A stretch of DNA of 64,000 nucleotides, taken from Gracilibacteraceae bacterium (lineage in GTDB: Bacteria; Bacillota; Desulfitobacteriia; Desulfitobacteriales; Syntrophobotulaceae). The stretch covers positions 1 through 64,000 of the forward strand of contig JAISAH010000111.1 in NCBI GenBank assembly GCA_031266805.1. The letters are read 5' to 3'. Position numbers and translations under genes: made by a program. Positions within the stretch are counted from its first letter, which is position 1. Every line of letters begins with the position of its first letter. This document shows positions 108 through 17,180 of this stretch, in pieces. The notes under the pieces were generated by a model. It was not told where the DNA came from. It searched no databases and saw only the letters and a list, made by a program, of their open reading frames with translations.

Positions 108-3100
108 CTATCCGCCGAAAGCGTAGAGCTTGGTCTCCGGGGTGATGGCCCCGAAATCCGCGCCCGCGGGATCGTTCCCCGGCAGGAGGACGATGGCGGC
201 CTTAGTCTGGGCGGCGAGGGCGGAGCCGGTCAGGGCGTCCACCAGAGTATTCCCGTCCGCCGTGTAAATATTCGTGTACTCAAAGTTCAGGGCGTCGCGG
301 ACGGCCTTGTTCGTCTCATAGCGCGTCGCGCCGTAGAGCCTTGTGGCCCCGGCCACGTCACGCACCAGAGTTGGGCCGCCCAGAATATAGACCTCTCCCG
401 TCGGCGCGCCGCTGACGCTGCCATCAGGACTGGCTATTTGGATAGCGTAGCCGTTGGCGGCGGCGAATGAAGCCGCGCTGACGGCGTCGGCGATAGCGTT
501 ATAACCGACGATGAATGTGCCTTTCGGGGCGGTCAGTTTCGCGCCCACCAGTTCCGCCGTCTCAAAACGGCTGGCCCCGCGTAAAGTCTCAACCGTGAGA
601 CCGGGCAGCGCCGCCTGCAGCGCGCCGATCACATCTTGGCTGATGGCGCCGACGGCGTAAACTTTCTTAGCGCCCAGGCGCTGGATCTCCGCGACCACAG
701 CGGGGTCAAGGGTTCCGGTACTGAGGAGGATCGGGGCTTTTTCCTGACCGGCCAGCGGCGCGACGGCCAGCGCGTCGATCAGGTTATTCTGCCCGCCGGG
801 AGCGAGGATTACCGCCTCGGCGCTCGTCCAGCCCTGACGGGAGATGGCGACGGAAGTTTGCACCCGGTCCGCGCCGCTGATATAACTGAGGCTGGCTTTG
901 CTCACCGTGATCGGCGCGGCTGCTTCCGGAATGGCGGTTGTCGCCAAGCCGCCGCCCCCGTTCGGAGAAGGTTTCCCGACCGGCGGGTCTGGCGTGACCG
1001 CCTTTTCCACATAGCCGACCGCGTAATAGGAGAGATGATTGGTATAAAATGTCACTCTGCTAGTGTCCGAGTTGTAATCCACCGCCCCCGGCATGGGTTC
1101 GCTGTCATACCAGACTGTAATCGTGACCCGCGCCGGGTCTATGCTGTCCGGCAGCGCGTATGGCAAAGAGATTGTGAGATTGCCGCCGAAATTCCGTATC
1201 TGTTCTTTGGTGTCGCCCTCCACATAGTAAACGCTCAGGTCAAACACTTGGGCGCCCTTGGCGCTTTCCGGCAGCGCGTCCAGCTCTGCCTGTTCCTGCG
1301 CCTGCGCCGGCTTGCTGATAACGACGTTCACGTCTTTACCCGCACCCGCCTGCGCGCGTGCAGTGCCGAGCGTCTCCCGGTCAAAGCTGATGCTGCCCAC
1401 CGGCGATGTGATGGTAATGGTTTCCAAGGCGCTGTCTTCTTTCTCCAGTTCTTCGAGTAAAACATCGAGCGCCGCCGGCGGCAGGGCCACATAGACCGCG
1501 TCTACAGCCGTCACGCCCTCCGGCAGGGTATCAGGTAAATTCACGCTGATTTCTAGAGTTGTAGTGTTGTTCCCCACGGCCTCTTGCACCGCGTCTGTGA
1601 CAAAATCCTCGTCTACTGTGACCGCGGCGGCCGGAGCGCCGTTATCGCCCGTGATGATATCCTTCGGCGCGACTTCTATCGGGACGCTCGTCGGGGCTTC
1701 ATCGGGAGGCTGAGGCGGAGCGACCGCTGGCAGCAAAGCCTCGATAGCCGCCAGAATCGCCGCCGTCCGTGTGTCGATCATGGTCTGGGTCACGCCCTCC
1801 AGGGTTTTCAGGGTCTGGCCTGCCCGAACGCCGGCTAAGAGAGCGGCGTAAGACTCGGGGCTATAGGCGCTCGCGTTTGCGCTCACGTTCCCGGCCGCCG
1901 TTATCGCCGCGTCCAGAGCGGAGGCGTCAGGCGCCTCGCCGTCCAGGTCGATCCCGCTCCAGTCGATCCACAGCCGGGCCGGCTGGTTAGCCGACGCGCC
2001 CATGATCGGGACGTTCACGTAGACGTCCGTCCACTCCACGCCCGGCGTGACTTCTATCCCGAGTTCTTTCGGGTAAAGCCAATCCTCACCCGTGTTGAAA
2101 CTGTCTTTAGTATCGTAGTGGCTGTAAACCTCAGCCGGGACCAGCTTATAAGTTACAAGGATCCCGCCGTCATCTTTAACAACATTTTCCATTTTGGAAA
2201 ACTCTTTTAAGGAACCCTGCTGTCCCAAAAAGGTTAGGGGTTGGAAGATCAGGCGCAATTCGACTTTCCCATTTTCGACCACGAGCTTAGACTGAGCGTG
2301 GTCGATGGCGTTGTTGCCCATGGAATATTGATTCTGCGTATAGTGCCACAGTTCGGTCTTGTTCGCGAGGGAATATTCGCCGTCGATGAGGCCGACCAGC
2401 AGATCGTCCTCGGCGGCCAGCGCCGTCTGAGCGGCCTCGAGTGCGGCGATCTGCGCCGTGATTTGCTCCGCGCTCAGACCGCCGGCCAACAGCGCCGCCT
2501 TAGCCGCTTCGACGGCGGCGGTCAGCGCCGTGTAAGAACTGGCGATATAGCCTGTGCCCTCTATCGCCTCAGCCGCCGCGACAGCGGCTTCCAGCGCCGC
2601 CTCGTCCGCCGCCGGCCGCGCGGCCTCAGCCTCGGCCAGCGCGGCGGCCACGGCTTCTTTGATGCCGTTACTGGCCAACGTCGCGCCGGTTATGGCGTCC
2701 ACGTCCTCCAGACTCACGCCGCCAGCGGCCTGAGCCGTCATGATCTGAGCGGGCACGGAAGCCGCGGTCTGCCCGCTCACCACACCCGTGCCGCCGTTGG
2801 TAAAGGCCATGGCGAAATAGCCGGGGGTCTGAGCGTGCGTTCCGGCCGTGATGCCGAGGATACGCCTGTCGCTCACTTCTACATTGATTTCGATCGCGGC
2901 GCTGCCGTTGCCGGCATAGCCCCGGCCCACGCCCTTATAGACGCCGGGGCCGTAGATGACCGGCCAGTCGCTGTCGTCGATATCCGTTTCCGTCTCCCGC
3001 GCCAAGGCTATAGCTTCCCGCAGCGCGGTTTTTGCCGTCTGGATCCCGTCTGAATCCAAACCGGTCTTATTATATTGAGTCTGAGCCGCGCTGATCGCCG

Positions 3101-5201
3101 CCCGCAGATCCATGACTTTCTCCAGCGCGACTGTTTCCAGCGCCCGCCGCGCTTCCTTCAAGGCGGCGGCCAAAACGTTCTTGTCATAGCCGGCGAGAGG
3201 GTTCTCCCCATCAAACAGCGTGGCTGAGGTGACGACTAGCCGAGCATAGCGCGAGCCAAATTCCATAATAGGGATGTCCATTAATATACGGTATTCGTCT
3301 CTGGCGCTGGGTGACGCTAGTGGTAGAATTATACGTTTCGGAAATTCAATGTTGTAATTCTCATGGATATTCTGTGATACCCCATCCACATCGTTGGCGA
3401 TGATTTCCTCGTCTGTAAAGTAAGAGAGGTGTTCTGCGGGCACATTGTCATGATATATTTCGCTCAAATAACCCTGAAGCGTTTCTCCCACATAAACAGA
3501 TCTGTTCTGCAAATACAGTAGCGGTGTCTGGCCAGCGACCGTCTCAATGTAGCCCCATTCATTCTCAATGGCGGTGTTGCCCATAGAAGGTTGATCTTCG
3601 TGATCATTCATAATAGCGACGGAAACTCGGTACAGCCCGGAAGGAAGATTATCCGTCCTGATGCCGGGGACCATCTCGCCGATAAAGTATGAAGCGTTCA
3701 ATGCTTTTATATCCTTTGTCGAGACCTCAGCAAAGAGTCCGTCCTCACTAACGGTAAAAGGGACGTTATAGTTGATTTCTTTATCGGCGGTCAGCCATCT
3801 GTGAATTCGGATTTTATTTGTATCCCATTCCGCCGGTATGGGGAAACAGACTGTGACGTCATTCACAGGAGCAAAAGTATGCCCTGCTGTGTTGAGTAGC
3901 CCAAGTGCGTAAACACGGTATCGATCCGTGTCGCTACCGCTGAGGGCAGCCATTGCGGCAAAATCCCCTGGACGCATATTGGGAAGCGCCGGATCGTATT
4001 CGCTGTATTGCTCAGCAGAAAAATCCGCACTAGCTGGAATAGCGGTGCTGAGATAGCGGAGAGCTACGCCTGATTCGGTTTGCTTGACTTCCGCGCTGAT
4101 AGGTACATAACTTAAATGTAGCCAGGCATTAGCAGTTTGTGAGACATCTTTATTATTGTAGAGAGTTTTTGTATGGAGTTTTAAGTATACACCAAAAATC
4201 AGATCGGTGTAGTCCATATCCAATTCAAAAGTGCTCGCGTCTATTATTTCCACATTGGCCCACGCCGCCCCCATCTGCTCATTTAGGTAATATCGAGGGT
4301 TTGCCTCCGAAGCAAGCTTCCTGCCGCTCGCTTTTTGTAGAGTGAACTCATCATCAGACTCTTTGAGCTTGAAAACAGCCTTGAGCTTCCCTGCGTCGTC
4401 CACCGCCACCTCAGCGCCCGCGAGGAAATCCGGCACAGTGTAGGCTGAATTGACTCTAGTCGCTGTATTGTCAGTGCCAGTTCCGGTATATATATTAGGG
4501 TTAGTCCAAAAGCAACTCATTTCGTAAAAGCCTTCATCCAACGATCCATCAGGCAGGGAGATAGCCACGTCGGTATTGAAGACTATACTTTGGTCAACAA
4601 AGCTATAACCTGCTGCAGTAATAGCGTCTGAGTAAGCCCTAGTCCATACCTCGGTCGGTTTGCTACTCAGCGAAAATGTGAGAAGCCCTGTATCCATCGT
4701 TTCATCGTCGATTTCTCGCTGCACACCACTTAGGTAGTATTCATTATTTATCGCGTCTATCGTTCCTTTGTCCGTCAGTTCCACCAGCAAGTCCGCCGGG
4801 CAATCAAGGGTTCCCGGTTTGAGTTTCGCCAAATCAGTATAGGCGCTACCATAACTGTCTTTTATTGCGCTGTGACAGTCCGGGTCAACGATGGATATGA
4901 AGTCAATAACACTGTACGAATTGTATTGCAGTGTGATTGTGTATTCCCCCGCGCCGTCACTATATACAAGCGCGCGCTCATTGAACTGAATACGTTGGCT
5001 GGCTTGGAGCGCCTGTGGGGCGACTACTCTGTATAATTGAATCGGAACAGAATAATACCCCGCGGCCAAATGTTCAGCCACAGGATCGCCACTACCATCG
5101 GCCCAAACAGGTGCAAGGCTGTAACTAAACGGTTGGGCTAGAACTATTACCATCAAAAGCACAGCCATTTTGCGCAACAACGGCAAGTTGCTATTTTTCA
5201 T
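108..5201 (-). CDS. Giant secreted NEAT / FMN-binding / CWB2 cell-surface protein
   Basis: A 1697-residue exported protein. Residues 1-35 form a signal peptide (charged MKNSNLPLLRK, then a hydrophobic core). Beta-rich NEAT-like segments fill about 40-700; one near 520 carries the PSMGN motif. About 751-855 is an FMN-binding domain whose motif DAITGATLAS (about 833-842) fits the ApbE-type covalent flavinylation site. FIVAR-like helical repeats follow, then a clear NEAT domain at about 937-1090 (YSMGNNAI), more helical repeat, a beta domain at about 1160-1400, and three CWB2 repeats from about 1433 to the end, which attach proteins non-covalently to the wall. What is seen: heme-binding-type domains and a flavin domain in one wall-attached polypeptide. 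Inference: it binds heme and passes electrons to it at the surface. A ribosome site (GTGGAG) sits 13 bases before the ATG. No ApbE gene is visible in the window. The heme operon lies just upstream on the same strand. Confidence 0.9.
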   Translation of the reverse strand: MKNSNLPLLRKMAVLLMVIVLAQPFSYSLAPVWADGSGDPVAEHLAAGYYSVPIQLYRVVAPQALQASQRIQFNERALVYSDGAGEYTITLQYNSYSVIDFISIVDPDCHSAIKDSYGSAYTDLAKLKPGTLDCPADLLVELTDKGTIDAINNEYYLSGVQREIDDETMDTGLLTFSLSSKPTEVWTRAYSDAITAAGYSFVDQSIVFNTDVAISLPDGSLDEGFYEMSCFWTNPNIYTGTGTDNTATRVNSAYTVPDFLAGAEVAVDDAGKLKAVFKLKESDDEFTLQKASGRKLASEANPRYYLNEQMGAAWANVEIIDASTFELDMDYTDLIFGVYLKLHTKTLYNNKDVSQTANAWLHLSYVPISAEVKQTESGVALRYLSTAIPASADFSAEQYSEYDPALPNMRPGDFAAMAALSGSDTDRYRVYALGLLNTAGHTFAPVNDVTVCFPIPAEWDTNKIRIHRWLTADKEINYNVPFTVSEDGLFAEVSTKDIKALNASYFIGEMVPGIRTDNLPSGLYRVSVAIMNDHEDQPSMGNTAIENEWGYIETVAGQTPLLYLQNRSVYVGETLQGYLSEIYHDNVPAEHLSYFTDEEIIANDVDGVSQNIHENYNIEFPKRIILPLASPSARDEYRILMDIPIMEFGSRYARLVVTSATLFDGENPLAGYDKNVLAAALKEARRALETVALEKVMDLRAAISAAQTQYNKTGLDSDGIQTAKTALREAIALARETETDIDDSDWPVIYGPGVYKGVGRGYAGNGSAAIEINVEVSDRRILGITAGTHAQTPGYFAMAFTNGGTGVVSGQTAASVPAQIMTAQAAGGVSLEDVDAITGATLASNGIKEAVAAALAEAEAARPAADEAALEAAVAAAEAIEGTGYIASSYTALTAAVEAAKAALLAGGLSAEQITAQIAALEAAQTALAAEDDLLVGLIDGEYSLANKTELWHYTQNQYSMGNNAIDHAQSKLVVENGKVELRLIFQPLTFLGQQGSLKEFSKMENVVKDDGGILVTYKLVPAEVYSHYDTKDSFNTGEDWLYPKELGIEVTPGVEWTDVYVNVPIMGASANQPARLWIDWSGIDLDGEAPDASALDAAITAAGNVSANASAYSPESYAALLAGVRAGQTLKTLEGVTQTMIDTRTAAILAAIEALLPAVAPPQPPDEAPTSVPIEVAPKDIITGDNGAPAAAVTVDEDFVTDAVQEAVGNNTTTLEISVNLPDTLPEGVTAVDAVYVALPPAALDVLLEELEKEDSALETITITSPVGSISFDRETLGTARAQAGAGKDVNVVISKPAQAQEQAELDALPESAKGAQVFDLSVYYVEGDTKEQIRNFGGNLTISLPYALPDSIDPARVTITVWYDSEPMPGAVDYNSDTSRVTFYTNHLSYYAVGYVEKAVTPDPPVGKPSPNGGGGLATTAIPEAAAPITVSKASLSYISGADRVQTSVAISRQGWTSAEAVILAPGGQNNLIDALAVAPLAGQEKAPILLSTGTLDPAVVAEIQRLGAKKVYAVGAISQDVIGALQAALPGLTVETLRGASRFETAELVGAKLTAPKGTFIVGYNAIADAVSAASFAAANGYAIQIASPDGSVSGAPTGEVYILGGPTLVRDVAGATRLYGATRYETNKAVRDALNFEYTNIYTADGNTLVDALTGSALAAQTKAAIVLLPGNDPAGADFGAITPETKLYAFGG

Positions 5202-5404: not shown

Positions 5405-5893
5405 TTACTGCGGATATCTGGCCAAGTAGTAGGTTTGAGCGTTATCATGGTAGAAATTCAGGTAAAAATCAGCTTCGATTGCTGAAATTGAATCTTCGGC
5501 GTCGTCTATTACTACGTCAATAAGTTCAAAATCAGAGAGATTAAAGACAGCTTCTCCATTGCCAGCACCTTCATCTTCCGCATAAACAGACGTGCTATCC
5601 ACTTCAATATCTTCTACATAGGCGTCAGTGTAGTATACTAGCGTGTGCTTGAAATAGAAAGTAACTGTTCCATCTACAGGGTTGTCATAGCCCTTAACAA
5701 CTCCCTGACCATGGGGAACAGGGACAATATCGGTGCCGTTGTCATAGAACAGATAGTATACAGGAGCAGTGTCACTTCCGGCTGTGGGATTGTCGGGGGC
5801 GCCCCAAGTTCCCGCGAAGGCGGGGGCGGCGATCAGGCTGAAAGCCAAGACCGCGGCGACGAGCAAAGTGGTGATTTTGTGGTTTTTCAACAT
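5405..5893 (-). CDS. Small secreted acidic protein of unknown function
   Basis: A 162-residue protein. Residues 1-27 are a textbook signal peptide (MLKNHK, hydrophobic stretch, cleavage after APAFA). The mature part is rich in Asp, Glu and Tyr, lacks cysteine, and alternates beta-like strands (YYLFYDNG near 47; FYLNFYHDNAQTYYLARYPQ at the end). There is no LPXTG motif, membrane anchor or wall-binding repeat, so it should be released or held by partners. AGGAG lies 13 bases before the ATG. It sits between the heme operon and the giant NEAT/FMN protein on the same strand, so a diffusible heme-binding role is conceivable. I do not recognise the family and no NEAT signature is clear. Confidence 0.75.
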   Translation of the reverse strand: MLKNHKITTLLVAAVLAFSLIAAPAFAGTWGAPDNPTAGSDTAPVYYLFYDNGTDIVPVPHGQGVVKGYDNPVDGTVTFYFKHTLVYYTDAYVEDIEVDSTSVYAEDEGAGNGEAVFNLSDFELIDVVIDDAEDSISAIEADFYLNFYHDNAQTYYLARYPQ

Positions 5894-6750: not shown

Positions 6751-7173
6751 CTATTTCCCCGGATGTTGACGCTCGCTTCGGTAACGCTCAAGCTCCGCCC
6801 GCGGGATAAACCACTGCCCGCCTGTTTTGAGGGCGCTCAGTCCGCCCCCTTTGAGCAGATTGTAGATCGTTCCCCGGCTGAGGCGCAAATACAGGGCCGT
6901 CTCCGAGACGGTGCACAGATCCGCGAACGCGCCCGTGCTAGGCGAGCCGTCGTCCGCGCCCGCGCTCACGGCGATTTCCGCCGGGACCGCGATGCCTCGT
7001 GCCTGGCAATAATTGACAAACGATACGCGCGTCAGCGCGTTCGGCGTGGAATGTTCTCTTTCCCATCTGTTGACGGTCACATAACTGATCTGCAGATCCG
7101 CCGCCAATTGCCGCTGGGTGACGCCGAGTTCGGCGCGCGCTTTTTTTACAAAATCAGAGAAACTCATGCTCAT
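6751..7173 (-). CDS. Two-domain HTH regulator (XRE + excisionase-type)
   Basis: A 140-residue cytoplasmic protein with two DNA-binding modules. Residues 1-60 are an XRE/Cro-type HTH (VTQRQLAADLQISYVTVNRWERE). About 85-137 is a MerR/excisionase-like HTH_17 (SETALYLRLSRGTIYNLLKGG...WFIPRAELERY). The ATG at 7173 overlaps the stop of the upstream exporter gene as ATGA, so translation is probably coupled and an in-frame upstream extension is rejected. As the last gene of the heme operon it may be an autoregulator. Its ligand is unknown; heme or iron response is an inference from position only. Confidence 0.8.
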   Translation of the reverse strand: MSMSFSDFVKKARAELGVTQRQLAADLQISYVTVNRWEREHSTPNALTRVSFVNYCQARGIAVPAEIAVSAGADDGSPSTGAFADLCTVSETALYLRLSRGTIYNLLKGGGLSALKTGGQWFIPRAELERYRSERQHPGK

Positions 7174-8813
7174 CCGTTTCCCAGCAGATACACGGTGTCC
7201 GCGACGCCCATCGTCGAGGGGCGGTGAGAGACCAGCGCGACGGCGCGGCCGCTTTTTTCCTCTCGCAGCGCCTTCAGAATAACGCCCTCGTTCAGGCTGT
7301 CCAAATTGCTCGTGGGTTCGTCCAGGAGCAGGAGGGGCGCGTCGTGGAGAAAAGCGCGGGCCAGACCGACTCGCTGCCGCTCCCCGCTCGAAAGCGTGCA
7401 ACCCATCTCGCCCACCGGCGTGTCATAACCCTCCGGCAGCGAGAGGACAAAATCATGCAGCGCGGCTTTTTTCGCGGCGGCGATCATATCGGCCCGTGAC
7501 GCCCCCGGCCGGCCGATCAGGATGTTTTCGCCGATGGTGGAATGGAACAGATAGGTCTCCTGGGTCATAAAACTTTCCAGTTCCCGGAGCCGCCCGGTGT
7601 TGATATGATCGATCTCCGCCCCGGAGATGAACACCGTGTTTGCCGGGGGCTGCCAAAACCGCATCAGCAGCTTCAAAAACGTGGATTTGCCGGAGCCGCT
7701 CCGACCGGTGATGCCGGTGATCACACCTTTTTCCAGCGATATGGAGATATCGCGCAGCACTTCCTCGCCGCCATAGGAAAAACTGAGGTTCCGGCTCTCC
7801 GCTCCGCTGAAATCCGGGCTTTCACCGTTCGTGACCTCCGGGGTTTCCGGCTCTTCCTCCAAGATGGCCAGCACGCGGCGTCCGGCGGCAAGCACGCCGG
7901 GCAAAGAGCTGCCCAACGCGGTCAGAGCCAGCGCCGGCCCAAAAGAGGAAAAAATGAGGACCACCGGCAGGACGGCGGCGGCCGCGATCCTCCCCTGCCC
8001 GTACAGGAGACAGCCGGCGACCAGAGCCAGCAGAGTAAAGGCTGTGACCAAAAGCCCGGCCAAGGCCCCGGTCACGCTTTCCAGCCGGTTCAGCCGCCGG
8101 CGGGCCGCGTCCGCCATGTCCGTCCGCCGCCCCATTTCCCGTTTTCTTGCCTCGGCGCCGCCGTACTGCAGCAATTCGGGCAGCCCGCGCAGACTGTCCA
8201 GATAAAACGCGGCAAAGCGCCCGTTTTCTTCCCTGAGACGCCGCTGTCCCTCCCGGGCAAAACGAGAGGCGACCGCCGGCAGGGCGGCGCCCAGCGCGAT
8301 ATGGGCGGTCAGGGCGATCAGGGCGAACAGCGGGTGACAGATCCAGACCAGACCGGCGACGGCGGCCGCCATGATCAGGGCGATCGCCGCCGGCGAGAGC
8401 GTGTGGGCGTAGAACACTTCCAAGAGTTCGATGTCGCTCGTGAGGACGGCGATGAGATCGCCTTTTTCCTTGCCCTCCAGTTTGGCCGGACATAGGCGGC
8501 GCAGAGCGGCAAACAGTTTTTCCCGGATCAGGGCCAGCAGGCGAAAAGCGATATAATGGTTCGCGGTCTGCTCGCCGTAGCGGAAAACCCCGCGGGAGAG
8601 GCCGGCCAGAAAAGCCAGACCGACGAAAACGGTCGGGGTCCACTCCGGCGGCGCCGGAGTGGCGCCGATCCCCGCCGCTGTGAGCAGGGCCGCGGCCCCG
8701 AGAACGGGGATGGCCGCCGCCGCCAGAGCGCCCAGAGCGCCCAGCAGCACGGCCAGCGCCAGTATGCCTTTCAGGGGGCCGACCAGCAAGATGAGTTTTG
8801 CCATGATCTTCAA
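7170..8813 (-). CDS. CydC-like ABC exporter (permease-ATPase) of the heme locus
   Basis: A 547-residue ABC half-transporter: six-helix membrane domain in residues 1-310, then an ATPase with Walker A GRSGSGKST near 374, signature LSSGERQRVGLARAF near 479 and Walker B LLLLDEPTSNLD near 497. The signature has LSSGE instead of LSGGQ. The membrane region has the CydC-like pattern RYGEQTANHYIAFRLL. It overlaps the CydD-like gene by 4 bases and should form a heterodimer with it. The TTG at 8813 is preceded by GAGGTG at good spacing; an in-frame ATG lies 9 bases later. E. coli CydDC is linked to cytochrome bd assembly and has been reported to move heme or thiols. Here the operon context suggests heme or porphyrin, which is inference. 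Confidence 0.88.
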   Translation of the reverse strand: MKIMAKLILLVGPLKGILALAVLLGALGALAAAAIPVLGAAALLTAAGIGATPAPPEWTPTVFVGLAFLAGLSRGVFRYGEQTANHYIAFRLLALIREKLFAALRRLCPAKLEGKEKGDLIAVLTSDIELLEVFYAHTLSPAAIALIMAAAVAGLVWICHPLFALIALTAHIALGAALPAVASRFAREGQRRLREENGRFAAFYLDSLRGLPELLQYGGAEARKREMGRRTDMADAARRRLNRLESVTGALAGLLVTAFTLLALVAGCLLYGQGRIAAAAVLPVVLIFSSFGPALALTALGSSLPGVLAAGRRVLAILEEEPETPEVTNGESPDFSGAESRNLSFSYGGEEVLRDISISLEKGVITGITGRSGSGKSTFLKLLMRFWQPPANTVFISGAEIDHINTGRLRELESFMTQETYLFHSTIGENILIGRPGASRADMIAAAKKAALHDFVLSLPEGYDTPVGEMGCTLSSGERQRVGLARAFLHDAPLLLLDEPTSNLDSLNEGVILKALREEKSGRAVALVSHRPSTMGVADTVYLLGNG

Positions 8814-10552
8814 GGACGAACACCTCTTTTGCCATAATTTTCCAGTAACATCTGCTCGTTATATAGCTGGGCGTACACGCCCTCCCGGGCCAGCAGTTCC
8901 GCGTGCGTTCCCCGTTCGGCGACGCGGCCGTCCGCCAGAAGGTAGATCCGGGCGCACGCCGTCAGGTTGGCCAGCCGGTGGGAGATGAGCAGCACGGTCT
9001 TGGTTTCCGCCAGCCGCCGGGCCACGTTCATGATGGCTTCTTCGCTCTCCGTGTCGATATTGGACGTGGCTTCGTCAAAAATATAGACCGCGCTATCCCT
9101 CAGCAGGGCCCGGGCGATGCACAGCCGCTGCCGCTGCCCGCCGGAGAGATTGGCCCCCCGTTCGCTCAGAGCCGTGGTCAGGCCGCCGGCCTCCTGCAGA
9201 AAATCCCAGAGGCGGACGGCGCGGAGGGCCTCGGTCATCTCCGTTTCCGTCGCTTCCGGCCGGGCGAGACGCAGATTGTCCGCCACCGTGCCGGTAAAAA
9301 CATAAGCGTCGTGGCTGACCAAGGTGACGCGGCGGCGCAGATCGTCTCGCGCGATATGACTCAGCTCCCGGCCGCCGGCGGCGGCGCTGCCGGTATAATC
9401 CCGCCGCTGCCCGCTGAGGAGAGCGGCCAGCGTACTCTTGCCGCAGCCGGAAGGCCCGGCCAGAGCGGTGAGCGTGCCCGCGGGGACGGAAAGATCGGCG
9501 CCGGTCAGGGTATCCCGGTCGCCGCCCGGATAGCGGAAAGAAAGGTCGCGGATCTCGATATCCAGGGGGCCGTCCGGCGGGGCGGCCTCGCCGTCCGGCG
9601 GCGCTTCCCGGCTGAGGAACTGAAACATGCGCTCGCCGGCGGATACTCCGTTCATCGCCACATGGAAATACGAACCCAACTGCCGGAGCGGGATAAAATA
9701 TTCCGCCGCCAGCAGCACCAGCGCCAGAGCGGCGGCCATGGAAACGCGCCCTGCCTCATAAGCCATGGCGGCGGCCGCGACGCCGAGAGCCGCCCCGCCA
9801 AAGGCGACTATATCCATGAGGATGAGAGTGGAGAGCTGCATCCGCAAAAGCCGCATCGTCGAGCGGCGAAAAGATTCCGCCTCGCCGGCCATCTCCTCCT
9901 GCCGCCCGCCGTCCGCGCCGTACACTTTCAGCGTCGTCATGCCCTGAATGTTTTCCAGGAACCGGTCTCCCAGCGAGATATAGGAGTCCCACTGCCGGCC
10001 GGCCATCTTCCCGGCCAGACGGCCGATCAAGGTGAGGACGGCCGGGATCAGCGGGGCGCAGATCAGGAGGACGGCGGCGGCGCGCAGATCGATGGGGGCC
10101 ATGACGCCAAAAAGGGTGAGCGGCGCGGCGATGCTGTAAAAAAACTGCGGCAGATAGCGGCCGAAATAGATTTCGAGCTGGTCGACCCCTTCGGTGGCGA
10201 TCTGCAGGATCTCCGCCGTGCCGATGCTCTCGCCGTAATCGGGGCCGAGCCTGATGAGATGGGCGTAGAGCTTTTCCCGCAGTTGTTTCTTCACGCCGGT
10301 CTGGACGGCAAACGCGGCTTTCTCCGCCCGCAGACCGCAAAACGCCCGCAGGAGGGCGGCCAAGGCGCAGACGGCCAAAGTCAGCGCCAGCTCGTCCGGC
10401 GCGGCGCCGCCCGCGGTCAGGAGACCGAGTAGGCGCGTTACCGCGGCGATGATGATCACATCCGCGAGCAGAGCGCCCCATTTGGCCAGGACCGCGGCCG
10501 CCACCCGGCGTCCGGCCTCCGGGGCGAGAGCTAAGAGCCGCCGGTCAATCAC
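8810..10552 (-). CDS. CydD-like ABC exporter (permease-ATPase) of the heme locus
   Basis: A 580-residue ABC half-transporter. The membrane domain shows the CydD hallmark IYFGRYLPQFFYS near 130. The ATPase domain has Walker A GPSGCGKST near 371, signature LSGGQRQRLCIARAL near 474 and Walker B VYIFDEATSNID near 489. It starts with GTG inside the end of the DUF454 gene (8-base overlap) and ends 4 bases into its CydC-like partner, so the pair is translated together. It differs clearly from the second CydD at 20.5-22.2 kb. Predicted inner-membrane exporter; substrate unproven. Confidence 0.88.
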   Translation of the reverse strand: MIDRRLLALAPEAGRRVAAAVLAKWGALLADVIIIAAVTRLLGLLTAGGAAPDELALTLAVCALAALLRAFCGLRAEKAAFAVQTGVKKQLREKLYAHLIRLGPDYGESIGTAEILQIATEGVDQLEIYFGRYLPQFFYSIAAPLTLFGVMAPIDLRAAAVLLICAPLIPAVLTLIGRLAGKMAGRQWDSYISLGDRFLENIQGMTTLKVYGADGGRQEEMAGEAESFRRSTMRLLRMQLSTLILMDIVAFGGAALGVAAAAMAYEAGRVSMAAALALVLLAAEYFIPLRQLGSYFHVAMNGVSAGERMFQFLSREAPPDGEAAPPDGPLDIEIRDLSFRYPGGDRDTLTGADLSVPAGTLTALAGPSGCGKSTLAALLSGQRRDYTGSAAAGGRELSHIARDDLRRRVTLVSHDAYVFTGTVADNLRLARPEATETEMTEALRAVRLWDFLQEAGGLTTALSERGANLSGGQRQRLCIARALLRDSAVYIFDEATSNIDTESEEAIMNVARRLAETKTVLLISHRLANLTACARIYLLADGRVAERGTHAELLAREGVYAQLYNEQMLLENYGKRGVRP

Positions 10553-10961
10553 AGGAGGATCCGTCCGTGGTGACGCTGACCGGGCCGGCGGGCGGTTTGG
10601 TCTTCAGGACAAAGAGGAAATAATACCATTTGAAAAGCAGGGCGCCGGCGATCAAGACCCGCGCGGGCCAGACCGGGGTGAAACGGAACGCGGCCAGCAG
10701 CATGACGGTGACGGGAAGGCAGATGACGAGTTTGGTCTTCATGGGCATCGTTTTATCCCGCACCACGCTTTGCAGATATTTTTTGTACAGTTTCGTGCCG
10801 AGAAACCAGCGGTGAAATCGCTCCGAACCGCGGGCGAAGCAGAAAAGGGTCAAGAGGAGAAAAGGGGTCGTCGGCAAAATGGGCATGACGACGCCGACCG
10901 CCGCGACGGTCAGAAAAATGAAGCCGAGCAGGACAAAGAACGGCTTGGTTATTTTAGACAT
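10545..10961 (-). CDS. DUF454 (YbaN-type) small membrane protein
   Basis: A 138-residue integral membrane protein with two or three hydrophobic helices (about 8-45 and 83-120). It carries the DUF454 core VGVVMPILPTTPFLLL followed by FCFARGSERFHRW. The ATG at 10961 has GGAAGGAG about 9-13 bases upstream, so a longer in-frame start at 11084 is rejected. The family has no settled function. As I recall, DUF454 genes recur beside heme-uptake ABC genes in Firmicutes and Proteobacteria. It lies between the heme importer ATPase and the CydDC-like pair, which supports a role in membrane handling of heme. Confidence 0.85.
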   Translation of the reverse strand: MSKITKPFFVLLGFIFLTVAAVGVVMPILPTTPFLLLTLFCFARGSERFHRWFLGTKLYKKYLQSVVRDKTMPMKTKLVICLPVTVMLLAAFRFTPVWPARVLIAGALLFKWYYFLFVLKTKPPAGPVSVTTDGSSCD

Positions 10962-10989
10962 TTTTATCAACTCCTTCCATGAAGACCGA

Positions 10990-11769
10990 TCAGACCGGCA
11001 GCACCCATATCCGCTCACCGTCGGCGCGCACGGGCAGGCGGACGCCGTACATGGCGAAAACCGTCTCATCTGTGACGACCTCACGCGGCGGGCCCTGGGC
11101 CAGCACCACGCCGTCTTTCAGCGCGATCACTTCGTCCGAGTACACGGCGGCCTGATTGATGTCGTGCAGCACCATCAGGATCGTGATGCCATGCTCCGCG
11201 TTCAGCGCGCGGATCAGGCGCAAAGTTTCCACTTGGTAGCGAATATCCAGAAAAGTGGTGGGCTCGTCCAGAAACAGAAGCTTGGGGTCTTGGGCCAGAG
11301 CCATAGCGATAAACGCCCGCTGTCTCTGCCCCCCGGAGAGAGTGCCCATCGGCTGCCGGGCGATGTCCGCTATCCCCGTCGCCGCCATAGCCCAGGCCAC
11401 CCGCGCCCCGTCCTCCGCCGACCGGCTGTGAAACGGGGAAATATGCGGCGTTCGCCCGTAAGTGACCAGCTGTTCCACGCTCAGGTCGTCCGGCGCCGTG
11501 TTTTTCTGATGGACGATGGCGGCGCGTTTGGCAAAATCTCGCAGCCGGAGAGCGGCTATGTCGCGGCCGTCCAGCAAGATCCGCCCGGCGTCCGGTTTCA
11601 GGTTTTTGGTCATGAGCAGGAGCAGCGTGGTTTTGCCGCAGGCGTTCGCTCCCATGAGAGTGGTCACGGCGCCGGGCCGGACCGTGAAACTGACGCCGCG
11701 CAGCACGGCGGTCGCCCCGTAGGCGAAGGAGAGGTTTTCCACTTGCAGTCTATGGCTATGAGCGGCCAA
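10990..11769 (-). CDS. Heme/iron-chelate ABC importer ATPase (HtsC/FecE type)
   Basis: A 259-residue ATP-binding subunit. Walker A is GANACGKTTLL near 36-47, with Ala replacing the usual Gly; the signature is LSGGQRQRAFIAMAL near 142; Walker B is LLFLDEPTTFLD near 163; the switch His is in VLHDINQA near 196. The TTG start overlaps the permease gene by 14 bases. With that permease and the lipoprotein it forms a type II (BtuCD-like) importer bringing heme or an iron chelate into the cytoplasm. It corresponds in order to htsC/siaC. Confidence 0.92.
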   Translation of the reverse strand: MAAHSHRLQVENLSFAYGATAVLRGVSFTVRPGAVTTLMGANACGKTTLLLLMTKNLKPDAGRILLDGRDIAALRLRDFAKRAAIVHQKNTAPDDLSVEQLVTYGRTPHISPFHSRSAEDGARVAWAMAATGIADIARQPMGTLSGGQRQRAFIAMALAQDPKLLFLDEPTTFLDIRYQVETLRLIRALNAEHGITILMVLHDINQAAVYSDEVIALKDGVVLAQGPPREVVTDETVFAMYGVRLPVRADGERIWVLPV

Positions 11770-12751
11770 CGCGGCGCCCCCTTTGCAGCAGGATGATGAA
11801 AAACGGCCCGCCCAGCACGTTCATCAGCACCGCGGCCGATATCTCCGCCGGCGCGGCGAGGACGCGCCCCAAAGTGTCCGCCGCCAGCAGGATAAAGGCC
11901 CCGAGCAAGACGCAGCAGGGGGTGAGGATCCGGTGATCGGAACCCACGAGCCGGCGGGCCATATGCGGGGCGATCAGGGCCAGAAAACCCACCACGCCGA
12001 TGATGGCGGTCGCGGCCGAAACCAGCAGAACGGCGACGGCGGAGATGAGACCGCGCAGGAAATCGGCGTTTACACCCAAACCGCGCACAGTTCTGTCTTC
12101 CAGAGCCAGAAGATTGCAGGCCGGAGCGAGCAGCACGGCGGCCGGCAGACCGCCCGCGGCGTAAAGGGCCAGTTGGCGGACGTCACTCCAGGAGCGCTGA
12201 CTCAGACCGCTGACCGGAGGGGAGACGCCGCCCGAGGTACTCATGCCGAACAAAGCCTCGGACAGTCCCGCGCATACGGCGCTGACCGCCACGCCCACGA
12301 GGATGACGCGCACGGGGTCCAGCGATCCTTTCCACGCCAGCCGGTATATGAGCAGAAAAGCCATAATTCCGCCGATGAAAGCGAAGATGGGTTTGGAGAA
12401 ATAGAGCATGGGGAAAAAAGCGGCGACCACAGCGGCGGTAAAGGCCGCGCCGCCGGCGATGCCGATGATGCCGGGGTCGGCCAGCGGGTTTTTCAGAGCG
12501 GCCTGCAGAAAGAGTCCGGAGGCCGAAAGCATCCCGCCCGCCAAGAGAGCGATGATAACGCGGGGAAAGCGCAGATCGTGAATAGCCGCCACCCGCGGGT
12601 CATAGGCCGTGAACAGGCCGTGCCACAGCTGCGCCCAGGTAACGGAAATGCTGCCTATCTTCAGGGACGCGAAAAAAAGGAGCGCCGTGAGCCCGGCGAG
12701 GACGGCGCAGACCAGCATGCCTGTCAGCAATTGCTTGCCGGCGGCCTTCAC
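11756..12751 (-). CDS. FecCD-family heme ABC importer permease (HtsB type)
   Basis: A 331-residue integral membrane protein of the BtuC/FecCD family with about nine or ten helices. Family motifs include LRFPRVIIALLAGGMLSASG near 60-80, LADPGIIGIAGGAAF near 95 and IIGVVGFLALIAPHMARRLVG near 255-275, a likely ATPase-coupling region. It overlaps the binding-protein gene by 4 bases and the ATPase gene by 14, so the three are tightly coupled. Substrate specificity is inferred from the heme-binding partners. Confidence 0.92.
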   Translation of the reverse strand: MKAAGKQLLTGMLVCAVLAGLTALLFFASLKIGSISVTWAQLWHGLFTAYDPRVAAIHDLRFPRVIIALLAGGMLSASGLFLQAALKNPLADPGIIGIAGGAAFTAAVVAAFFPMLYFSKPIFAFIGGIMAFLLIYRLAWKGSLDPVRVILVGVAVSAVCAGLSEALFGMSTSGGVSPPVSGLSQRSWSDVRQLALYAAGGLPAAVLLAPACNLLALEDRTVRGLGVNADFLRGLISAVAVLLVSAATAIIGVVGFLALIAPHMARRLVGSDHRILTPCCVLLGAFILLAADTLGRVLAAPAEISAAVLMNVLGGPFFIILLQRGRRVGRS

Positions 12752-13650
12752 GCGGCGCTCTCCTCGTAGAAGAGGTCCTCCAGCTGATCCAGAGCCTCAG
12801 GCCAGAGAAAATTGGCGCTCATGCTAAAGATCTCATAGTCCAGGTCATAGACCCGCCCTTCCTGTACGGCGCGAAAATGTTTCCAGATGTCGTTTTCCAT
12901 AAATTCCCTGGCGAACATCTCTTTGACCAGATCCGGCAGGGCGTGGGCGGCGCACAGTATGATATCCGGGTCGAGCAGCAGCAATTCCTCCGTGTTCCAG
13001 TTTACGAAGCTTTCGGCCGGATCTGTGACCACGTTTACGCCGCCGCACAGTTCGACCAGATCGCCGATGTAGGAATTAGGCGTGCCCTCGATATAAGCGC
13101 CGGGCAGTCCCATGAGGATCAGGACGCGGGGGGCGGGGCGCCCGTCTTGTTTTAGCCGCAGCTGGGCGAGGCGGTCTTCGTATTCCTGCCGCAAGGCCCG
13201 CGCTTCCTCAGCCGCGCCGTATTTGCCGCCCAGGTAGTCGGCGCTTTCGTATAAACCCCGCACGCTGCGCAGATTCAGGAAGGTGGCCGGCAGGCCGGCG
13301 TTTTCGTAGCCGGGGGAGAGGCTTTCCGCCAAGGTGTCCGGCCCGGCTATTTCCGTGGGGGCCAGCAGTTTGATTTGTTCCATGTCGGGGGACATGGAAG
13401 CGCCGATGCGGGGGACGTCCGCGTAACGCGCGGGTAGTCCCGCGAGCGAGGGCACTCCCGCCAGTTCCAGTCCCAGGCGGTCGCAGATCTCCACCGTGGC
13501 GCGCGACGTGGCCATCAGGCGGTAGGCGGCCGCGCCGTCTTCCGCCAGCAGCGGCCCGGCCGGGTTTTGGTCCACGCAGCCGCCGCCCCCCAGCGCGATG
13601 AGCAGGAGCAGGAGCGGGAGCGCGGCCCGCGGCGCGCGCGGGATATTCAT
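12748..13650 (-). CDS. Heme-binding lipoprotein of ABC importer (IsdE/HtsA type)
   Basis: A 300-residue periplasmic-binding-type lipoprotein with signal peptide and lipobox ending at Cys25 (LGGGGC). It shows the IsdE/HtsA features SMSPDMEQIKLLAPTEI (Met86 in the SMSPDME motif) and His236 in LCAAHALPD. In S. aureus IsdE, heme iron is held by one Met and one His in corresponding regions. The C-terminal FSMSANFLWPEALDQL is also typical of the family. It should accept heme from the Shp-like and NEAT proteins encoded upstream and deliver it to the permease. It overlaps both neighbours by 4 bases. Confidence 0.9.
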   Translation of the reverse strand: MNIPRAPRAALPLLLLLIALGGGGCVDQNPAGPLLAEDGAAAYRLMATSRATVEICDRLGLELAGVPSLAGLPARYADVPRIGASMSPDMEQIKLLAPTEIAGPDTLAESLSPGYENAGLPATFLNLRSVRGLYESADYLGGKYGAAEEARALRQEYEDRLAQLRLKQDGRPAPRVLILMGLPGAYIEGTPNSYIGDLVELCGGVNVVTDPAESFVNWNTEELLLLDPDIILCAAHALPDLVKEMFAREFMENDIWKHFRAVQEGRVYDLDYEIFSMSANFLWPEALDQLEDLFYEESAA

Positions 13651-14585
13651 GGTTTGCTCCTCCCGGCCCGCCGGGCGATCAGGACGCCGGCCAGCACCGC
13701 CGCGGCGGCGCCCGCCGCCAGAATCGCCCCTCCCGGCGGGTCGGCCGGGGCCGCGGGTTCCTCCGGTCCCTCCGGTTCGGTCAAATCGCCGGTCACATCG
13801 CTCGCTTCCGGCAGCGCGGCGGGGTCGTTCGTACTCGTTTCCGGCGGCGCGGCGACCGAATCATTCGCACTCGGTTCCGCCGGCGTTTCCGTTTCGACCG
13901 CCGACTCGCTTGCTGCCGGCGCCGATCCCGCCGGGGATCCCGTTTCCGCGGCCGGTCCCGCCGGCGCGGTCGTTTCCGCCGGCGGTTCCGGCGATTCCGC
14001 CGGCGGCGCTGCCGTTTCCGCCGGCGGGGCGGGCGGTTCGCTCGCTTCCGCCGGCGCCGCGGCCGGTTTGACGCTGACGATAAAATCCCCGCTCCCTTCC
14101 CGCAGGGCGTCGCTGACATTCATATAAAATTTCACGTCCCGTCCCATCGGCTCCACATACATCGCCCAAGAGATATAGCCGGTGAGCGCGGGGACGGCGA
14201 AGCGGTAATCCGCGGAATCCGCCGCCGCGTCCTCCATCATGATCCGGGGAGTGACGCTCTGGTAAGCGCCGCCCGATCCCTGCTGGACCCAAAGACGCAC
14301 ATCCCGCATGTTGCTCATGAGCAGGAGACGCACGGTCAGGTAGATCTGGCCGTTTTCGATCTCCGCCAGCGCGTCCTTATAGACGACGCTGCGGCACATG
14401 CCTTCGCCGATGGCGGTGTTCTGGCTGCCGCCGTCGTCGGTCAGCCCCGTGTCGGGGTTCAGGTAATAGGTGTTGGTCGCGGCCAGATAGGCCCCGTCCG
14501 CCGCGGCCCAGACAGGCGGGGCGAAGCAGGTCTGCGCCAGGAGCGCCGCCACCGCCAGATTCAAGATGATACGCTTTAACCGCAC
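13647..14585 (-). CDS. Shp-like heme-binding surface protein
   Basis: A 312-residue exported protein: signal peptide 1-28, heme-binding domain about 30-175, a Pro/Ala/Glu/Thr-rich stalk about 176-275, and a transmembrane helix near 282-302 followed by ARRAGRSKP. The domain fits streptococcal Shp: NPDTGLTDDGG, NTAIGEGMCRSVVY, YLTVRLLLMSNMRDVR and YVEPMGRDVKFYMN. Met63 and Met147 are the probable axial heme ligands by analogy with the bis-Met Shp site. In Streptococcus, Shp passes heme to HtsA, and the HtsA-like gene follows here with a 4-base overlap. No sortase motif precedes the tail, so anchoring is by the helix. The start is GTG. Confidence 0.85.
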   Translation of the reverse strand: MRLKRIILNLAVAALLAQTCFAPPVWAAADGAYLAATNTYYLNPDTGLTDDGGSQNTAIGEGMCRSVVYKDALAEIENGQIYLTVRLLLMSNMRDVRLWVQQGSGGAYQSVTPRIMMEDAAADSADYRFAVPALTGYISWAMYVEPMGRDVKFYMNVSDALREGSGDFIVSVKPAAAPAEASEPPAPPAETAAPPAESPEPPAETTAPAGPAAETGSPAGSAPAASESAVETETPAEPSANDSVAAPPETSTNDPAALPEASDVTGDLTEPEGPEEPAAPADPPGGAILAAGAAAAVLAGVLIARRAGRSKP

Positions 14586-14625
14586 AGATGAAATCCCCTT
14601 TCTTTTTAGGACATTAGTGCCCGGT

Positions 14626-17070
14626 TCAGGCTCCCGGTTTAGCCCGCCGCCGCCTGATGATAAACCCAGCGGCCACGGCGGCCAGCGCCAAGGCTCCTAT
14701 CGCCGCGGCCTGAAGGCCGGCGCTCTGTTTCGGCGCCTGCTCGTTGACAACCGGCGCAGTCGCCGCGGCTGCGGGTTCCGCCGCTCGCGCCACCACCGGC
14801 GCCGCTTCCGGGACGGTCTCTTCTGCCGCGGCTTCCGTTTCCGTCTGGACCCTGACCGGCTCGGCGGCGGCGGGCGCGTCAGCGCGGACCACAGCCGGCT
14901 CGGGCGCCGCCGCGGCCGCCGGCGCCGTCACAGTCGCCGCCGCGGGCGGCGGTACAGGCGGCGGCGGAACTTTTGCCGCTCCCGCTACGAGAGCGTACAG
15001 GCTCAGATGATTGAGATCCACCTCATAGAAATCTTCGGATATCCGCCCCCTGATCAGCGTGGCCGTGCCGTCCGCGTTGACGCGGTAGCAAAGGACGCTT
15101 TCCGGGTCGTAGCCCGCCGGAATGGGTATGCGCAGCGTGATCAGCCCGTCCGGCTGAATGGCCTCGCCCTCCAGTTCCAAGCTGATGTCAAAGAGGGTGA
15201 ATTTGTCCCCGATCTCCGTAAGCGCTCTTTGCGCCAACTGATAGCCGGTACTCGCGCTTTCCGCGCCGATCTGGGCGACGACAAAGACCGCGCCTTCCGG
15301 CACCACGCCGGCGGGGGCCGTCAGGCGGATATTCGTCGTCTCATCCCTGAGCGCCGCGGTCGGGGCTTTGCTCGGACTCAAAGACGAATTGCCGTAAGCC
15401 ACGTTCTCGGTGGGATTCAGTTCCGCGTCGGCCGGGGCGGTTTTCACACTGGCCCAGTTGATACGGAACCGTGCTTCCAGCCATCCGTCCGTAGCCGCGC
15501 CCACCGCGTCCATCGGCGTGTAGGGGACTTTGATCCGCGTAGGCAGATACTCCGCAGAGACGTCGGGCAGGCTGATTTCAAACACTTTCAGGTAGATTAT
15601 CTCATGCTCCTCGCCGTCAAACTTTGTGTTGGTCGTAAAAGGGGCGCTCACCAATTCACTGGCCCCCTCCACCTCGGTGATGCCCGTGGTGTAGCCGCTC
15701 ACCTCCACGGGGTGGGTGGCGATATGCATAACGGAACTGCCGCCTTCCGTGATCACAAGCGCGGTTTTGTCAAAAGCGACGCTGCCCATGGAGGATTTAT
15801 TAAGTTCCGCGTGCCACAGATCGACATTCACATAATACCGGCCGTCCTGCGCCGGATCGACGGCGCCCGCGCCGCCGCCTGTGCCCGGCGTACCGGGGTT
15901 TACGGGTGTTGCCGCGGCCGGCAGCAGCGCGCTGAGCGCCGCCCGGACCGCCGCCGCCCGCTTGTCCGCCATATCCTGGGTGACGGTCAAAGCCGCGTTA
16001 CGGCTCACCAGCCATTCTCCCGCCGCCGTCGCGGCGCTGAGCGCGGCGCGGGACGCCGCCGTCCAGCCCGCGGCCCCGCTGCCGCCGGCTTCCGCCAGAG
16101 CGGCCTCCAGATCGGCGACGTCGGCGCGCTGGGCGCCGCCGCTCAGGTCAACCCCGCTCCAGTCCAGGCGCAGCCGAGCCAGCTGCGTGCCGGAGCCGGA
16201 GTTGATCTTCTCCATTACCGGCACGAATACTTCCACGATCACTTCTTCCTCGCCCGGGGAAACGGGAATGCCCAGCTCCCGCGGATACCAGAGTCCCTGA
16301 TGTATCGGGCCGTGGGCGTCGGTAAAACCTTCATACGTTTCGTAAACGGCGGCCGGCGTTTTATCGTAATGGCTGATATAGCCGCCGTCGTCATAATATA
16401 TGCGATCCACGCGGGCAAAGGTTTCCAGATACCCGGTCAGCCCGGCGGTGCTCAAAGGCTGGAAAAACAGGCGCAGTTCCGCCTTCCCGTCCGGGCCGGA
16501 AATCACCCGGCTCAGTTCGTGGGCGACGGCGGCGTGCCCCATGGAGGGGTTCGCGGGAACGCTGTAATTCCAGAGGGCGGTCCGCTGGGCAAACGGATGA
16601 TCGCCTGCGGGCAAAGCCTGCCGGTTTTGCAGGTCTTCGCTCAAAACCAGCGCGGCCTGCGCCGCCTTGAGCAGGGCGACCTGAGCGTCCGCCTCTTTCT
16701 GGGTCAGTCCCTCGCTTTGGATCGCCGCCTCGGCGGCGGCGACAGCCGTGCCCAGGGCCGCGAGCGACGTCGCTTCCGCGGAAGCCTCGGCGTCGCCATA
16801 CCGGGCCTGGGCCTCGGTTATAGCCTCCGCCAGCGCGGCCGTGTCCGCTCCGGGCACGTACACACCCGCGGCGGCGGCGCGCATTTCCGCCCGGAATGTG
16901 TCGTCCTCGGTTTCATAAACACCCTCCGGCTGTTCCGGCGCCGCGCCGTCTTCGCCCGGCGTCTGTCCGGCCCAGACGACCGGCAGCGGCATGATCGCCA
17001 GCAGGGCGAGCGCAAGCAGCAAACTCAGGCAGCAGCGCGCGCGGATCCCTTTTCTTGTAAACATACTCAT
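14626..17070 (-). CDS. Two-NEAT-domain heme-capture surface protein
   Basis: An 814-residue exported protein and first gene of the heme operon. The signal peptide is 1-34. A FIVAR-like helical repeat (about 70-130) precedes NEAT 1 (about 150-310, motif NPSMGHAAV) and a second helical repeat (about 320-390). NEAT 2 follows (about 405-550, LWHAELNKSSMGSVAF), then a ZU5-like beta domain (about 555-690), an Ala/Pro/Glu stalk, a transmembrane helix near 782-803 and the tail RRRRAKPGA. No LPXTG-type motif is seen, so it is probably membrane-tethered. NEAT domains bind heme at the Gram-positive surface. The module order FIVAR-NEAT matches that in the 1697-residue protein. AAGGAG precedes tandem ATGs. 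Confidence 0.9.
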   Translation of the reverse strand: MSMFTRKGIRARCCLSLLLALALLAIMPLPVVWAGQTPGEDGAAPEQPEGVYETEDDTFRAEMRAAAAGVYVPGADTAALAEAITEAQARYGDAEASAEATSLAALGTAVAAAEAAIQSEGLTQKEADAQVALLKAAQAALVLSEDLQNRQALPAGDHPFAQRTALWNYSVPANPSMGHAAVAHELSRVISGPDGKAELRLFFQPLSTAGLTGYLETFARVDRIYYDDGGYISHYDKTPAAVYETYEGFTDAHGPIHQGLWYPRELGIPVSPGEEEVIVEVFVPVMEKINSGSGTQLARLRLDWSGVDLSGGAQRADVADLEAALAEAGGSGAAGWTAASRAALSAATAAGEWLVSRNAALTVTQDMADKRAAAVRAALSALLPAAATPVNPGTPGTGGGAGAVDPAQDGRYYVNVDLWHAELNKSSMGSVAFDKTALVITEGGSSVMHIATHPVEVSGYTTGITEVEGASELVSAPFTTNTKFDGEEHEIIYLKVFEISLPDVSAEYLPTRIKVPYTPMDAVGAATDGWLEARFRINWASVKTAPADAELNPTENVAYGNSSLSPSKAPTAALRDETTNIRLTAPAGVVPEGAVFVVAQIGAESASTGYQLAQRALTEIGDKFTLFDISLELEGEAIQPDGLITLRIPIPAGYDPESVLCYRVNADGTATLIRGRISEDFYEVDLNHLSLYALVAGAAKVPPPPVPPPAAATVTAPAAAAAPEPAVVRADAPAAAEPVRVQTETEAAAEETVPEAAPVVARAAEPAAAATAPVVNEQAPKQSAGLQAAAIGALALAAVAAGFIIRRRRAKPGA

Positions 17071-17180
17071 GTCATCCTTAACTCCTTTGCCTTATAATAA
17101 AATCAATCCGTCGCGGGGAAGCGGAGGGAGGGGGAGGTATGTGACAAATTTCCCGCACACCCGCGGGGGAGTCGCAGTTT

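Follow-up and report, generated by a model that had tools for sequence, protein, structure and literature searches.

Shr-like NEAT domains and a predicted flavinylation domain in one wall-binding protein beside a heme-import locus of a Gracilibacteraceae bacterium

Related heme receptors and flavinylated proteins

NEAT-type heme uptake is usually pictured as a passive hand-over of heme from protein to protein. In Shr, the receptor of the streptococcal system, we know of no FMN_bind domain, no CWB2 anchoring and no flavin step. The window analysed here, a stretch of 64,000 nucleotides from a Gracilibacteraceae bacterium of an uncultured Clostridia-type lineage, encodes a 1697-aa surface protein (108..5201, minus strand) that is like Shr of the Shr-Shp-HtsABC pathway (structures 9w5y and 9w5z) in the sub-kind of its NEAT domains, with both heme-ligand methionines conserved, and also in its surroundings, where Shp and an IsdE/FecCE importer adjoin the gene. 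The Isd-type NEAT receptors (IsdB/IsdH, IsdX, and Hbp2) share the NEAT fold with the window protein, as found with Foldseek, but the window NEAT domains are without the YxxxY heme tyrosines and an FMN_bind domain has been added.

The multi-flavinylated wall proteins of Meheust et al. 2021 (PMC8238504) resemble the window protein in their extracytosolic FMN_bind motif, genomic ApbE, wall-binding domains, and FIVAR-type linkers. NEAT is unmentioned in the text of that paper, whereas in the window the flavin domain sits on a heme receptor. Flavinylated iron reductases (P19-FTR1-FMN_bind and PepSY-like; PMC8238504) likewise tie an extracytosolic flavin to iron assimilation, but they act on ferric iron or siderophores and not on receptor-held heme. 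Each of the parts (Shr-type NEAT, FMN_bind, and CWB2) is already known, and the initial annotation took their combination to be undescribed. This holds in so far as literature searches on NEAT with FMN_bind, flavinylation, or ApbE found no relevant paper discussing the pairing; it is weakened by Table S1 in Honsa et al. 2014 (PMC4143258), whose legend defines "FMN" among the additional features of NEAT proteins. Going by this legend, the FMN-NEAT pairing was probably tabulated in that 2014 survey, whose text leaves it undiscussed.

Domains of the 1697-aa surface protein

The domain architecture of the 1697-aa protein, as read from its sequence, is solid. The open reading frame, with Pfam matches to CWB2 and FMN_bind and a weak one to NEAT, ends 107 bases before the contig end, and all of its features lie on the minus strand. 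The order is signal peptide, an N-terminal part of about 470 aa, NEAT, helices, FMN_bind, helices, NEAT, spacer, and three CWB2 repeats. A Sec signal peptide was predicted by eye from the sequence at aa 1-35 (...LAPVWA-DG; 5097..5201), and the N-terminal part (aa 36-504; 3690..5096) has no Pfam match and aligns with the G018 ortholog at 25-33% identity. The proposed tether was recovered as three CWB2 wall-binding repeats at aa ~1441-1697 (111..881; Pfam CW_binding_2, 82.9 bits, three stretches). A motif scan of the protein found no CxxCH, so covalent c-type heme is not expected.

An FMN_bind domain had been placed at about residues 751-855 (window 2640-2960, minus strand, corresponding to aa ~748-854 of the frame), and Pfam bears this out with a match at aa 769-855 (2637-2897) of 42.3 bits and E 1.2e-10 against a gathering score of 22. 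The same domain scored 49.1 bits in the whole-genome search (C38:2637-2897), and its full extent was taken as aa 752-860 (2622..2948). The flavinylation motif that had been claimed is intact as D835-A-I-T-G-A-T841 (2679..2699), with Thr841 as the predicted site of FMN attachment, and it fits the published pattern D-x-x-[ST]-G-A-[ST] (PMC12052999).

The FMN_bind domain could in principle be a structural relic that is not flavinylated. Decay does occur in the family, as a G018 relative (L052; G018:C46, 2-4549) has lost the motif (AQRINSAIGTS) and still has its NEAT domains, which shows that retention of the motif is not automatic. The motif is nevertheless intact in the window protein, in both orthologs (as DTVSGAT in G018, and also kept in G017) and in nearly all paralogs. 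Comparison with the G017 ortholog (86% identity over 998 aa) showed 96% identity and a dN/dS of 0.19 for FMN_bind, 82% and 0.28 for the downstream NEAT, 78% and 0.67 for the spacer, and 97% and 0.08 for CWB2; among the parts compared, only CWB2 has a lower dN/dS than FMN_bind. With this purifying selection, and with ApbE present in the genome, a relic is improbable in the extreme. At the G017 locus (L047, G017:C99, 1-1489), genes that by sequence reading resemble cytochrome c biogenesis genes (ResB/CcsA type) run towards the window gene's ortholog and stop opposite it.

The FMN_bind domain is sandwiched between NEAT domains, as had been suggested, since profiles place these at aa 517-668 (3198..3653; custom profile, hhalign, and motifs) and aa 937-1091 (1929..2393). 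AlphaFold secondary structure gives a helical linker at aa 673-745 (2967..3185) before FMN_bind, and a FIVAR-like helical linker follows it at aa 861-934 (2400..2621; AlphaFold helices), where the corresponding part of the G018 ortholog has a Pfam FIVAR match (20.6 bits, under its cut-off). The profile searches that the initial annotation had proposed gave FMN_bind over its cut-off and CWB2 at 82.9 bits but NEAT under its cut-off (22.3 bits at aa 939-987, cut-off 32.8), and the NEAT assignment comes instead from the match of the profiles to 9w5y, from hhalign for the upstream domain, and from Foldseek. NEAT passes the Pfam gathering score in a paralog (C93) and in two relatives (L051 and L189). 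The family profile covers both aa 937-1091 and aa 517-668; it contains the window's own sequences and is not independent support for the window NEATs.

An alignment of 16 NEAT rows was built from the 1697-aa protein, an 814-aa neighbour, and genus relatives. SM near the start and PxM near the end were invariant in all of them (16/16). The profile of all 16 rows (A1) matched 9w5y at 1e-21, and a profile of nine aligned NEATs (A3) matched a single solved structure, again 9w5y, at 6e-14. This structure was judged to be streptococcal Shr NEAT2 from its sequence range and its describing paper. The upstream NEAT is more diverged, and its family matched A3 by hhalign with E 8.7e-10. Met961 and Met1067 of the downstream NEAT, and Met540 and Met646 of the upstream one, fall at the ligand positions Met997 and Met1107 of Shr NEAT2. 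The YxxxY heme signature on strand 8 is absent from the window NEATs, which have VPIMGAS and IPIMEFG instead. By these sequence features the window NEATs are of the bis-methionine, Shr-like kind and not of the Isd type. The methionine pair of Shr coordinates heme; as a neutral ligand, methionine may accommodate the iron of heme in either state, Fe(II) or Fe(III), whereas tyrosinate stabilises Fe(III) (PMC12796733). In Shr the alpha/beta bands of ferrous heme lie at 528 and 560 nm (PMC3359286). A bis-methionine NEAT is therefore the kind that could be redox-cycled.

Structure prediction, also proposed earlier, agreed with these assignments. The AlphaFold model of aa 500-1092 had a mean pLDDT of 70.9 and a pTM of 0.37 (shallow alignments), with mostly 75-92 over the downstream NEAT and mostly 50 to 90 over FMN_bind. 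All 24 Foldseek matches of this model in the PDB at E<=1e-3 were NEAT structures, and 3sz6 reached a TM of 0.80 on the target. With a pTM of 0.37, the distance between FMN and heme is not judgeable from the model. A model of the NEAT-FMN-NEAT unit of C93 had poor confidence over FMN_bind.

Adjoining heme-import genes and flavin machinery of the genome

The whole heme locus lies upstream of the 1697-aa gene on the same (minus) strand. Between the receptor gene and the importer genes there are a 162-aa gene and a longer gap. The 162-aa secreted protein (5405..5893), next to the receptor gene, has no Pfam family and is possibly a small hemophore. Farther upstream are an HTH regulator-like protein (HTH_3 and HTH_17; 6751..7401), a CydC-like ABC transporter (7170..8813; NCBIfam TIGR02868 over cut-off), a CydD-like ABC transporter (8810..10552; NCBIfam TIGR02857, 413 bits, narrowly missing the cut-off of 435), and a DUF454 membrane protein (10545..11084; match under cut-off). 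These are followed by the FecE-type ATPase (10990..11769) and FecC/FhuB-type permease (11756..12751) of the heme importer, an IsdE heme-binding lipoprotein (12748..13650; NCBIfam TIGR03659, 299.9 bits, over cut-off), the Shp heme-relay protein (13647..14585; Pfam HemeBinding_Shp, 154.8 bits; 2q7a at 1.7e-20), and the 814-aa two-NEAT protein, which is without FMN_bind (14626..17070). The last has a weak Pfam NEAT match and scored 271 bits with the class A NEAT profile, which includes the 814-aa protein itself. Shp, a heme-binding lipoprotein, and a FecCD-type importer thus stand in one gene run, which marks the locus as Shr/Shp/Hts-like. No Fur box was found near the heme locus. By gene reading, the same locus core occurs without the FMN gene in G062, and partly elsewhere. 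An 843-aa open frame with no Pfam family (14566-17097, plus strand) runs antisense to the 814-aa NEAT gene and is probably a high-GC mirror frame.

The own genome (G000), a MAG estimated to be 95% complete, was searched family by family. It contained ten FMN_bind matches and two ApbE flavin transferases; the lack of any apbE gene had been named at the outset as refuting the observation. One ApbE gene (C97) carries NusG_II and adjoins a gene of PF07456, to which the FAD-exporter subunit EetB of Listeria belongs (PMC9973259), and by reading its neighbours are an ECF T component and two ATPases. On these sequence matches, this ApbE sits beside EetB/FmnA-type FAD exporter genes. Close to the second ApbE gene is one for a fumarate-reductase-like protein that has two FMN_bind domains. 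The predicted signal peptide of the 1697-aa protein, the two ApbE copies, and the FAD-export genes together are what is expected for an extracytosolic flavinylation substrate. Two membrane proteins combine Fer4_5 with FMN_bind (C81 and C113) and are, by their domains, possible electron donors. Cytochrome bd is encoded, from which it follows that the organism uses heme, and a search for cytochrome b (PF01292) in the same genome gave no match. Elsewhere in G000, a cluster read from sequence as P19, FTR1, permease, and ABC genes is followed by an FMN_bind gene (L021, G000:C108), the FMN_bind alone being assigned by profile; in this reading it resembles the flavinylated cluster for iron assimilation in PMC8238504.

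An oxygen or heme-stress device was also weighed, in which the FMN domain would keep surface heme reduced or remove O2 and so spare the surface of an anaerobe. In its reduced state, the multi-flavin protein SaFMN3 reacts with O2 (PMC10339131), and the cytochrome bd of this genome makes exposure to O2 likely. Oxidative-stress genes were however not recognised in the locus, and such a device gives no reason for fusion to a receptor over a free form, so that we regard it as very improbable.

Recurrence of the pairing and proposed flavin-driven heme uptake

FMN_bind and NEAT occur in one open reading frame in several genus paralogs and relatives (C93, C102, G017, and G018), among them a G018 protein (L051) that combines 2 FMN_bind domains with 4 profiled NEAT domains. 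Outside the genus, no flavinylation motif was found in the NEAT loci retrieved for the phylum sample and for the window's class, and from the family, class, and phylum samples the combination had appeared confined to the genus. This was overturned by fusions in G554 and G784, two distant Clostridia, in a further sample from another class in which 24 of 391 genomes had NEAT. Two proteins of G554 are fusions, with FMN_bind at 81 and 65 bits and NEAT at 41 and 34 bits. A 2074-aa protein of this genome (L190, G554:C66) has two FMN_bind-NEAT units and a marginal dockerin-like end (Pfam Dockerin_1, 22.8 against 22.9 bits). The G784 fusion (L171; G784:C49, 6936-8717) is a protein of 594 aa with FMN_bind at 36 bits and NEAT at 28 bits (under cut-off, E 2.8e-6), and it shares 45% identity with a segment of L051 over 315 aa. 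Its gene is flanked by CydDC-like genes on one side and by a NEAT-Shp-IsdE-FecC-FecE-DUF454 run on the other, with every gene on the same strand, and by sequence it is the cleanest small model of the fusion.

In G789 (L169 and L202; C28), a third clostridium, a NEAT-NEAT-IsdE-like-FecC-FecE series is followed on the same strand by separate FMN_bind (65 bits) and ApbE genes. The ApbE of G789 has no obvious signal peptide. Two candidates were set aside: an FMN_bind gene near NEAT in G613 (L179), whose neighbours resemble an Rnf operon by sequence reading, and a double-motif gene (L201), which is several kb away from NEAT and oriented oppositely to it. Going by the sequences, flavin and NEAT are joined in several lineages, both fused and unfused, and horizontal transfer may explain part of this recurrence.

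The genus freely recombines FMN_bind, NEAT, FIVAR, beta-helix-like, and CWB2 modules, and domain shuffling could have put FMN_bind and NEAT independently on one scaffold, as a redox patch and a heme receptor that exchange no electrons. A 1817-aa paralog (C140; L017, G000:C140, 7070-12520) combines FMN_bind with CWB2 but has no NEAT, so in this genome the flavin domain also occurs apart from NEAT, and most NEAT loci of other genomes are without FMN_bind, so NEAT uptake in general does not need it. The helical linkers that separate FMN_bind from the NEATs in the 1697-aa protein fit independent domains as well and count against heme reduction. Shuffling is nonetheless unlikely, as FMN_bind immediately precedes NEAT with almost no linker in the C93, C102, G018, and G554 proteins, and in two additional lineages FMN_bind is part of a NEAT operon or attached to one. 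The 1817-aa gene of C140 comes after another very large frame (2244 aa), which is cut at the locus start.

In another reading, NEAT-held heme and covalent FMN would form an electron path across the wall, serving extracellular respiration on borrowed heme and not uptake, in the manner of a multiheme cytochrome whose heme is scavenged. Such a role has been proposed for multi-flavinylated wall proteins (PMC8238504), giant wall-type proteins of the genus repeat FMN_bind and NEAT (C93, C102, and L051), and the Fer4_5-FMN_bind membrane proteins and the fumarate-reductase-like protein could take part in it. We consider it unlikely for the window protein, which has a single FMN_bind and whose gene adjoins a heme importer, with the G784 relative inside one, which speaks for assimilation; exchangeable heme would also be a poor permanent wire.

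The best explanation, to which we give a probability of about one half on sequence grounds, is that the protein is a heme receptor of the Shr kind, anchored in the wall and fitted with its own covalent flavin, which would reduce bound heme as part of uptake. Of the roles suggested by the initial annotation, reduction of heme at the surface needs the fewest assumptions, given that the gene sits next to a heme-import locus and that the G784 fusion is inside such a locus; heme release from host proteins and extracellular respiration are more conjectural. Sequence establishes the domains and the two motifs, the heme locus, the genes for ApbE and FAD export, and the recurrence; flavinylation, heme binding, electron transfer, and the driving of heme transfer by reduction we infer. 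The bis-methionine NEAT domains would capture heme and hold it between their methionines, and ApbE would attach FMN to Thr841 outside the membrane. Membrane flavin/Fe-S proteins would pass electrons to that FMN, which in reduced form would convert heme in the NEAT domains from the Fe(III) to the Fe(II) state. Ligation or affinity would change with the reduction, and the heme would then travel by way of the two-NEAT protein, Shp, and IsdE to the FecCE importer, or be stripped from its source. The FMN of SaFMN3 has a potential of about -184 mV (PMC10339131), which, by analogy, would be low enough to reduce many hemes, and the flavinylated assimilatory iron reductases are a precedent (PMC8238504). 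Counting against this reading are the linkers, the paralog without NEAT, the many NEAT loci without FMN_bind, the lack of a Fur box near the locus, and the 162-aa gene and gap that lie between the receptor gene and the importer genes. More tentatively, the FMN on the NEAT receptor may gate a relay, its reduction of heme setting when and where heme leaves; in the multi-domain paralogs, alternating FMN and NEAT-held heme could also act as a surface electron path on scavenged heme.

If true, Gram-positive heme uptake would include a redox step of which no description was found, and the receptor flavin would add an electron-transfer step able to drive heme release or to gate it, above all in anaerobes. 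It would link ApbE flavinylation with NEAT heme capture, two separately studied fields, with the G789 operon and the G784 protein as small, testable versions, and it would give a class of wall-bound flavinylated proteins lacking clear function a concrete substrate in heme.
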